DNA of 48,499 bases, taken from contig CAMCXK010000014.1 of assembly GCA_945883435.1 (NCBI GenBank), forward strand, positions 1-48,499. The letters run 5' to 3'. A program made the position numbers and the translations under genes. Below the pieces are notes generated by a model. The model ran no database searches. It was not told the DNA's origin and saw only the letters and a list, made by a program, of their open reading frames with translations. This document shows positions 25,777-28,305 of this stretch, in pieces; position 1 is the first letter of the stretch, and each line of letters starts with the position of its first letter. This stretch comes from Chthoniobacter flavus. GTDB lineage: Bacteria; Verrucomicrobiota; Verrucomicrobiia; Chthoniobacterales; Terrimicrobiaceae.

Positions 25777-26796
25777 GCCGGATTCAAGCGCCTTCCGGTC
25801 CTTTGGAGGATGTCCGGGAGGTGCGCGACCGCCTTGGAGCTATCGGGCTGCGTCGCAAGCGGCAACCTGGTGGTCAGGTCGATCTGGCCGGTGCCGTCGA
25901 TTCCCCGGGCGCGGGAACGCCATAGGTGGACTGGTAGGGATTGGGGACGGTGGAAGTGGTCCCGGTTCCGAGTTGCTGGGTGGTCTGGAGATACGGGTTG
26001 CTGGAGACCGGAATCTAAGGGTAGCAAACGATCTGATCGAAAAGTCATTGAGTAGATTCGGCGTCGAGGCGCTGGAGAAAAGCTGCGGCATGAGCGGACC
26101 CCAGCTTCCAGCCGACCAATTTGAGGAATACCAATGGTCTGGTGCCGGTGTGGGGTAGGTTTCGATCAGATTATGGCGGGACTGCAACGCGGAGGTCCAT
26201 GATGACCGGGGAGTGAAGCCGGAGATTCCGAAAGGCGAGGTGTAGTTCTGAGCTGTCGCTGCGAGGTGCGCAAAAAATAATAATGAAAAATGACTTTTTG
26301 ATCATAAGTAATTTGTTATGCAGTGGAAAAGCGCAAACAACGCTCCTACAGCGATAGCGCCAAGTGTCAGTATTTGAGGTTCGGGAATGCTCCTGCATTG
26401 ACTTGTGAGGCGTCAAACGACGCCGGCTCATTGAGACCAGATCCACCGATCGGCACGGGCACGGCTCTTTCAGCTGCTTGCAACGTGTTGCGCGGAAAGT
26501 TTTAAAGTTTTTCGCGTTACGCCGAACGTTTTTAGAGCCGGATGGATTCGCTCCCGGCCGTGGTGAGGGCGCGTTCCAAGTCCTCCAGAACGATTTGAAT
26601 CGGGAGCGGAATGATATGACGGGAGTAGTTGGTGGTGGTCGAGTCGAACGAGGCGATTTCGAAGTAGTTAATAGCTGGAGCGCCGTTTTCGCTACGGTTG
26701 AATAACTCACATTTTGTTCGGCGTCTGTCCAAGCTTGCTACACGGAAGTTGCAATCGGCGGAAATTTACTCCACGATGGTGAGCTAATCTTTTGCC
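25777..26796 (-). pseudogene. About 1 kb of apparently decayed minus-strand coding sequence
   Basis: No intact gene fits, but protein-like stretches occur on the minus strand in changing frames. Near 26732-26532 an open frame includes RHIIPLPIQIVLEDLERAL before its stop. Near 26450-26280 a segment with NEPASFDASQVNAGA runs out of frame at about 26388 into IPEPQILTLGAIAVGALF, which looks like a PEP-CTERM sorting signal, ending at a TGA. Near 26160-25790 come PLVFLKLVGWKLGSAHAAAF, then in the same frame two stops, then NPYLQTTQQLGTGTTSTV, then a shift to GIDGTGQIDLTTRLPL. Segment 26270-26340 is strikingly AT-rich. I infer one or more frameshifted genes; the identity is not known and no transposase is seen. 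Confidence 0.45.
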
Positions 26797-28305
26797 ATGG
26801 AAAACGACGAGACCCAACCGGTGAGCGAGGTGATGAACGGCGACGAAGCGGCTGTTTTTCTAAAAATGCCGAAATCCACGCTGCTGAAGCTCTGCAGCGA
26901 GGGACAACTCCCGGGGGTCAAAGTCGGCCGCCAGTGGCGATTCCACCGCGATGCGCTTGAGAATTGGCGCCGCGAAAAGGCCGGCGAGGAATCGACGGAT
27001 TTGCCGGAGGCGCCTGCCGAGGGCTTTGGGCAATCGCTGGCCTCCGCGGAAGCCCGTTTGGAGCGTGAGATCAAACCTGTCGTCAATGAGGTGATCGGCA
27101 GCGTGGGAGAGGAGGACTTTGATTCCGTGGGCGATGTCATCGACTTGGACGAGTCCGGCACGACAGGCCAGCCGGTGCCACTGGAGGAAACGGTTGACAA
27201 GCCAGTGGCCAAGGCCAGCCGGAAAGCCCCGGCCAAGCCATCGGCTCTGGAGTTGATGGCGGAGATTTCCGAACGTTCCTCGGGCAGGAAATCCACCAAA
27301 ACCAGCCGCGCGCGTGCCACGACTGCCCCCAAAGCGGCGGCTCCAGCGCCTGCACCCAAGCCAGTTTTGGAAAAGCGCGAGGAACCCGAGGCCGTCGAGG
27401 TTTCGCGGCCTTACAACAAGCCGCCCGCCGTCGCTCCGTCCCGTCCTGCGCCCGCGCCCCGCAAGCAAGGCGGGGGAGCGGGGGCTTTGAAAAATCTCTT
27501 CTACGGTGTGGTTGTGGTTGGGGTATTGGTTTTGGCCGGCTTCGGTGTGAAATCCATTCTGATCCCCCCGCAAATGGCGACCCCATCCGGGGCCGATGCC
27601 CCCAAAGCTCCTTATGTGCCGCCGCTGCCGGAGTTTCAGGTCGTTTACAAGCACAACGAACCCGACGAACCGCGGGATGACACCTTCAAAGTGCCGGCCA
27701 CCCCGCAACCGACTCCTGCCGTGTTGGCTGACGCGGCTCCTCCGCTGGCAACAGGTCCTGCGTTACCCGCTTCTCCACAGGAAATCGCGGCGCCGGCGCC
27801 ATCGATGCCGATCAACGTGCCTCCACCGGCAAACCCCAACTTGGATTCCATCAACCGTCTTCTTCCGGGGCTCTTCGACTTGTCGGGATGCGCGATCACA
27901 AGCAACAACAATGAAATCCGGATCAAGTTCCAGGACGGACTGTTCGCCTCCGGCGTCAAGCTCGATCGCGCGGGGCGTGAGCGTCTGACGCGCGTGGCCC
28001 AGTTCCTTTCAGCAAATGCGCCCGATTTTTACGTGATCATCGAAGGCCAGACCGATGGCCAACCATTGCGGGCGAATTCCATGTTCCGCGACAATTACAA
28101 TCTCGGGTTCCAGAGGGCGATCACCGCCACGGAAGTGATGCGATCGGAAGCGGGATTCCCGGCCGAGCGGCTTCTGGCAAGTTCCGCCGGAGGATCTCCT
28201 CCGCCCTTTGCGAAGGACCAGCCGAACGCGGCCCAAAAAAATCGAACGGTGGTTTTGCGCCTGATTCCAAAGACCGGCAGCATCCCCGCTTCACAGCCCG
28301 AATAA
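26797..28305 (+). CDS. HTH (excisionase/MerR-type) - transmembrane - OmpA-like fusion protein
   Basis: A 502-residue protein with three parts. Residues ~10-60 form an excisionase-type winged helix-turn-helix (DEAAVFLKMPKSTLLKLCSE, then GVKVGRQWRFHRDAL). Residues ~60-230 are a long low-complexity Ala/Pro/Lys linker. A single membrane span lies at ~234-256. After a Pro-rich periplasmic linker, ~349-490 resembles an OmpA/MotB C-terminal domain: IIEGQTDGQPL keeps the Asp of the canonical GHTD, LGFQRA keeps the conserved Arg and QKNRTVVLRL matches the NRRV end. The topology puts a DNA-binding domain in the cytoplasm and a peptidoglycan-binding domain in the periplasm. Roles such as wall-responsive regulator or chromosome anchor are inference. 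Single gene, 43 bp before pyrD. Confidence 0.75.
   Translation: MENDETQPVSEVMNGDEAAVFLKMPKSTLLKLCSEGQLPGVKVGRQWRFHRDALENWRREKAGEESTDLPEAPAEGFGQSLASAEARLEREIKPVVNEVIGSVGEEDFDSVGDVIDLDESGTTGQPVPLEETVDKPVAKASRKAPAKPSALELMAEISERSSGRKSTKTSRARATTAPKAAAPAPAPKPVLEKREEPEAVEVSRPYNKPPAVAPSRPAPAPRKQGGGAGALKNLFYGVVVVGVLVLAGFGVKSILIPPQMATPSGADAPKAPYVPPLPEFQVVYKHNEPDEPRDDTFKVPATPQPTPAVLADAAPPLATGPALPASPQEIAAPAPSMPINVPPPANPNLDSINRLLPGLFDLSGCAITSNNNEIRIKFQDGLFASGVKLDRAGRERLTRVAQFLSANAPDFYVIIEGQTDGQPLRANSMFRDNYNLGFQRAITATEVMRSEAGFPAERLLASSAGGSPPPFAKDQPNAAQKNRTVVLRLIPKTGSIPASQPE

Follow-up and report, generated by a model that had tools for sequence, protein, structure and literature searches.

A Membrane Protein Joining an Excisionase-Type Helix-Turn-Helix to an OmpA/MotB-Like Domain in Chthoniobacter flavus: a Candidate Wall-Anchored DNA Tether

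Described systems closest to the window protein

Positioning of the bacterial chromosome makes use of landmarks in the membrane, at the pole, or in the nucleoid. Among the described anchors, the MerR-type winged helix-turn-helix (wHTH) proteins RacA, Par, and RocS tether DNA to the pole or the membrane (PMC11500499), and HubP combines a periplasmic LysM domain, one membrane span, and ParA1 binding (PMC8789113). We analyzed a 48,499-nucleotide stretch of DNA from Chthoniobacter flavus (contig CAMCXK010000014.1; hereafter the window), in which the open reading frame at exactly 26797..28305 (+ strand) encodes a 502-residue protein that, judged by its domains, span, and orthologues, is a bitopic inner-membrane protein (the window protein).

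Like the window protein, RocS (Streptococcus pneumoniae) and RacA (Bacillus subtilis) have an N-terminal MerR-type wHTH, an extended region, and an attachment at the other end (PMC11500499), and it is by analogy with these that tethering would be proposed for the window protein. Unlike it, RocS attaches through an amphipathic helix and RacA through DivIVA, and both lack a membrane span and a wall-binding domain. HubP/FimV (Vibrio) resembles the window protein in carrying a periplasmic peptidoglycan-binding domain (a predicted one in the window protein), one span, and a cytoplasmic part in one chain, and its cytoplasmic part fixes a chromosome-partition protein (PMC8789113). It differs in having LysM instead of OmpA and the opposite order of parts, and in acting on ParA1 and lacking an HTH.

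The stator subunits PomB and MotB share the single span, the linker, and the same OmpA-type C-terminal domain with the window protein, which, however, has no acidic ion-carrying residue in its span, no MotA partner nearby, and a large HTH-bearing cytoplasmic part. RodZ also consists of a cytoplasmic HTH, one span, and a periplasmic C-terminal domain, as does the window protein, but its HTH belongs to HTH_25 rather than HTH_17, and a RodZ-type protein exists separately in the genus. A cytoplasmic winged HTH, one span, and a periplasmic domain are likewise found in proteins of the ToxR/CadC type, whose HTH is of the OmpR type; in contrast, the window protein has an HTH of another family, a (predicted) wall-binding domain instead of a dedicated sensor domain, and no conserved target neighbor.

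Each part of the window protein is already known, and the order HTH-span-OmpA has not been described within the open papers searched. The open-access main texts searched contained no description of HTH-span-OmpA or ParB-span-OmpA proteins, and the main text of a 2025 survey of ParB-CTPase fusions names neither OmpA nor transmembrane proteins. A first-pass annotation of the window had known of no well-described family with this architecture, and none turned up in the profile libraries and open papers that we searched.

Architecture, conservation, and upstream region

The first-pass annotation had read the protein as a DNA-binding domain joined to a peptidoglycan-binding domain, with an excisionase-type HTH at about residues 10-60, one membrane span at about 234-256, and an OmpA/MotB-like domain at about 349-490, and had suggested as possible functions a wall-stress regulator, a chromosome anchor, or a partition element. 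Profiles, structural model, charge pattern, and orthologue conservation bore the architecture and topology out, and computation establishes for the window protein the domains, their order, the single span, its orientation by charge, the conservation, and the OmpA subtype. When Pfam was run on the 502-residue protein, HTH_17 and OmpA were both significant and above the gathering score, with nothing else of weight. The gene is present as a single copy in its genome and is flanked by genes for an alpha/beta hydrolase and pyrD, with cysS also in the window.

The HTH_17 or truncated MerR-type (excisionase-type) wHTH, predicted to be cytoplasmic, covers residues 13-62 (26833..26982, +). Pfam HTH_17 (PF12728; residues 16-61, E = 3.8e-12, 46.7 bits against a cutoff of 27) and the NCBIfam excise model TIGR01764 (42.6 bits against 28.8) agreed on this domain, which was the top HTH_17 match of the whole genome, and there was no Pfam match to HTH_25 or Trans_reg_C in the window protein. 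Invariant among family members are 31 of the 48 HTH columns, with K26, S27, T28, K31, K42, R45, and R48 invariant in the recognition helix and wing. Domains of the HTH_17 type usually bind DNA, and the HTH of the window protein would do so too. A phage excisionase, i.e., a small, stand-alone recombination directionality factor near an integrase or prophage, was rejected, given the 502 residues, the ordinary chromosomal neighbors, and the full-length presence through the genus.

The membrane span, without acidic residue, lies at about residues 231-256 (27487..27564, +) and is the only hydrophobic span in the protein (238-256, mean hydropathy 2.55; no D and no E), and no second span was found in any of the 15 family members. 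The 20 residues before it contain three positive and no negative charges, those after it one of each, and the N-terminal side carries the higher net charge in 13 of the 15 family members, the two sides being equal in 2. This charge bias supports a topology with a cytoplasmic HTH and a periplasmic OmpA domain, i.e., on opposite sides of the membrane.

Within the cytoplasmic linker, a conserved short helix, SALELMAEISER (residues 149-160; 27241..27276, +), may serve as a partner-binding motif. The pattern S-A-x-x-L-M-x-x-I-S (written SALxLMxxIS, 149-158) is near-invariant in all orthologues, and a helix was seen at 150-160 in a low-confidence full-length AlphaFold model (two sequences; pLDDT 40), used for secondary structure only. 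Another conserved motif, AVEVSRPYN (199-207; 27391..27417, +), precedes the membrane span, with A199, V200, E201, S203, R204, and P205 invariant (family motif AVExSRPY, 199-206). The predicted periplasmic linker (residues 259-345; 27571..27831, +) is Pro/Ala-rich (45% P+A), varies from 87 to 124 residues among family members, and includes a conserved LPEFQVVYKHN (277-287; consensus among orthologues LPEFxxVYxHN).

At the C terminus, residues 346-492 (27832..28272, +) form the OmpA/MotB-like domain, with predicted peptidoglycan binding. Pfam OmpA (PF00691) matched residues 388-483 (E = 6.5e-7, 30 bits against a cutoff of 27.2), many weaker MotB/PAL-type NCBIfam models also matched, and the best match in a sequence search of the PDB was to PomB periplasmic domains (E = 5.7e-6). 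An AlphaFold model of residues 345-498 (two sequences; pLDDT 74, pTM 0.74) supported the fold, with YiaD as the best Foldseek match (8.8e-10, TM 0.76), followed by MotB, PomB, a T6SS wall anchor, and OmpA with a bound peptidoglycan pentapeptide. The annotation had also considered an Asp/Arg site equivalent to known peptidoglycan-binding residues to be kept. The window protein indeed has both the Asp of GQTD (D420), which corresponds to the DAP-binding Asp, and the Arg of LGFQRA (R440). Across the 15 family members R440 is invariant, but position 420 is occupied by D in 11, by N in 3, and by S in 1, so the Asp half of the claim fails in 4 of the 15 species. With Asp420 variable and Arg440 invariant, peptidoglycan binding by the OmpA domain appears likely, although not assured for every orthologue.

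Orthologues were found in 14 of the 15 other species of the genus (one of them ends at a contig end), which makes the architecture more than chance; the one species in which no match was found has an assembly of 590 contigs, so that its absence may be a gap. The relatives found come from assemblies of metagenome type. No orthologue was found in 10 species of sister genera. A full-length relative with 50% identity is present in the Verrucomicrobia MAG REEB449, and family-profile searches of 384 class genomes and 388 phylum genomes yielded no other full-length members. The window gene is genuine and specific to its lineage. Conservation in the family is highest in the HTH, with a mean pairwise identity among orthologues of 85%, compared to 66% for the OmpA domain, 61% for the span region, and 34-45% for the linkers. 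An order-wide protein search beyond the genus returned only HTH domains fused to receiver-like domains, and the phylum-wide HTH matches were acetyl-CoA synthetase-like fusions or small HTH proteins, none of those examined having a span and an OmpA domain. As read from translated sequences, HTH_17-type domains are fused to response-regulator receiver-like domains in L021, L025, and L026 of the same order and lie N-terminal to an acetyl-CoA synthetase-like enzyme in L067, L068, and L074, from three genomes of other classes.

The neighbors of the family gene (orthologue neighbor names were read from translated sequences) differ by subgroup: pyrD, thrB in six species, ychF and ftsA/ftsZ (the ftsZ end of the division cluster) in two, and a glutamine-synthetase region in others. 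No conserved synteny around the gene was found when subgroups were compared. Upstream, the element TTGCAA-N17-CACGAT (26749..26777, +) ends 19 bases before the ATG. The pattern TTGC[AC]W-N17-[CG]ANNNT starts 48-51 bases before the ATG in 14 of 14 family members with a complete start, compared to 0.02 on average in composition shuffles, the pattern itself having been derived from the same sequences; the stricter TTGCAW-N17-CANNNT matches the window at a single place. The element is probably the gene's own promoter and could possibly be, or overlap, an operator or site for the window protein itself, while the upstream search gave no clear further operator shared by family genes. Given its own upstream element and the lack of fixed neighbors, the gene behaves as a stand-alone gene, for which a structural or global role would account better than dedicated local regulation.

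Relatives sharing the OmpA subtype

A search of the phylum with the family profile matched other single-span proteins through their OmpA part, a subtype with the signature GLxRA, PPF/PPY, and KNRTV. A joint HMM scored the subtype at 117-187 bits compared to 23-36 bits for three other OmpA proteins of the window genome, MotB included, a gap that is partly by construction since the model was built from the subtype proteins themselves. Used alone, the window-family model also placed the subtype proteins well ahead of the remaining OmpA proteins of the genome, none of which it reported. The window protein shares its OmpA subtype behind one span with a ParB_N/LGRGL-span-OmpA group (HMM and tree). 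In the OmpA-domain tree, the HTH proteins form one group (support 93) next to a single TPR-like protein, and another group (92) unites the ParB/LGRGL proteins. ParB_N occurs in the cytoplasmic part of L057, L059, L061, L063, L064, L065, and L078, and coiled coils, TPR-like, and GYF-like parts occur on the same OmpA subtype in others. Neither the window protein nor its neighbors contain a ParB_N domain, an LGRGL motif, or a parA gene.

Two further observations concern these relatives. Family f35 (L057, L059, L061, L063, L065, L157, and L161) has the order ParB_N-span-OmpA without LGRGL and with no parA found nearby, and a cyclophilin-type peptidyl-prolyl isomerase gene adjoins two of its members. 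The protein encoded by L090 (4615-9165) has 1517 residues, beginning with a GYF-like part and ending, after a long middle stretch, in the same OmpA subtype.

In at least eight genomes, from other classes of the phylum, the gene immediately behind a soj-type parA encodes a single-span protein with LGRGL, the ParB-type ParA-contact motif, a periplasmic OmpA domain, and in some cases a ParB_N domain. These parA-linked anchors are L085 (7231-9422; G340), L094 (G355), L088 (G532), L137 (G467), L087 (G550), L135 (G603), L136 (G611), and L138 (G605), and they start with an LGRGLxDL-type motif (LGRGLGEL in G467). ParB_N was not recognizable in G550, G603, G611, and G605, where the LGRGLGDLL motif, the span, and the OmpA domain are kept; G467, their close relative, retains a recognizable ParB_N. 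That these three parts are kept without a recognizable ParB_N suggests that the ParA-contact peptide and the wall anchor are the working core of the parA-linked proteins. All six genomes tested have two soj-type ParAs, of which the anchor-adjacent copy is 65-67% and the second copy 53-60% identical to the anchor-adjacent G340 copy, and a canonical parB is located elsewhere in four of four genomes tested, without a parA within about 1.5 kb. The LGRGL-span-OmpA protein beside a second parA is apparently a wall-anchored ParA partner.

Possible roles of the window protein

We favor, tentatively and at slightly below even confidence, the reading that the window protein is a wall-anchored DNA tether, linking DNA to the cell wall. 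A site on the DNA would be bound by the MerR-type wHTH at the N terminus, some 170 residues of flexible linker with the two short conserved motifs would span the cytoplasm, one helix would cross the membrane, and the Pro/Ala-rich linker of about 90 residues would span the periplasm, so that the MotB-like OmpA domain could dock on peptidoglycan. A chromosomal locus or the nucleoid edge would then be held at a fixed place on the wall, as with RocS/RacA and HubP. From these features we infer DNA binding, wall binding, and a positioning role. The domain, span, and fold evidence and the full-length orthologues through the genus argue for the tether, as do the higher conservation of the HTH relative to OmpA domain and linkers, with its basic and polar helix and wing residues invariant, and the stand-alone gene with its conserved upstream element and wholly different neighbors between subgroups. 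The published precedents RacA, Par, and RocS (PMC11500499) and HubP (PMC8789113) are consistent with it. In addition, the same OmpA subtype, fused behind one span to ParB_N or LGRGL, is encoded immediately downstream of a soj-type parA in other classes, and such relatives tilt the reading toward anchoring or partition. The variation of D420 argues against the tether, however, and so do the absence of ParB_N, LGRGL, and a parA neighbor from a protein whose genus has an ordinary parA and parB, and the TPR-like rather than ParB-type identity of its closest non-HTH relative on the OmpA tree. Since the OmpA subtype also occurs on coiled-coil, TPR-like, and GYF-like parts, it may be a general wall anchor only.

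A membrane-embedded one-component regulator similar to ToxR/CadC, in which the OmpA domain would sense the wall and the HTH would switch wall genes, perhaps including its own promoter, is an unlikely but serious alternative. The usual DNA binding of HTH_17 and the topology fit it, and the element found 48-51 bases upstream in every complete-start member could overlap an operator, but the HTH is not of the OmpR-winged type (no Trans_reg_C match) and is separated from the membrane by a 170-residue flexible linker. The lack of any conserved neighbor as a possible target also tilts away from a dedicated local regulator. Also unlikely, and placed by us after the regulator, is a RodZ-like adaptor, whose HTH would bind protein, as the RodZ HTH fold binds MreB, and would link a cytoplasmic scaffold instead of DNA to the wall. 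The layout is that of RodZ, the motifs SALxLMxxIS and AVExSRPY resemble partner-binding sites, and the OmpA subtype bears non-DNA cytoplasmic parts elsewhere; against this, the HTH belongs to HTH_17 instead of HTH_25, a RodZ-type HTH_25 protein is present in the genus besides, and the basic residues typical of a DNA-contacting helix and wing are invariant. Replacement of RodZ was ruled out by that HTH_25 protein, and replacement of ParB by the canonical parB and one soj-type parA in the genus. A fusion of an excisionase-like HTH and a MotB-like anchor without a DNA-related function, e.g., a relative of motility stators, is very improbable: genus restriction and the PomB match would suit it, but every domain is strongly conserved across the genus, the span lacks an acidic residue, no motA is adjacent (a separate motA/motB pair is found at G000:C1), and the OmpA subtype is far from the genome's MotB.

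Extending the tether reading to the phylum, we consider it possible, though doubtful, that there is a modular class in which one OmpA subtype and a span carry as inside part an HTH (in this genus), a ParB CTPase-type domain, or a ParA-contact peptide served by a dedicated second ParA, with the wall as the fixed frame for positioning DNA or ParA. If true, one polypeptide reaching from DNA to peptidoglycan would supply an external frame that stays fixed and would couple chromosome order to wall growth in a simple way. The idea is testable in the parA-linked relatives, where a wall anchor is combined with the known ParA-contact peptide, and the exchange of the HTH end for parts of the partition machinery in distant relatives hints at direct anchoring of the bacterial chromosome to the wall.
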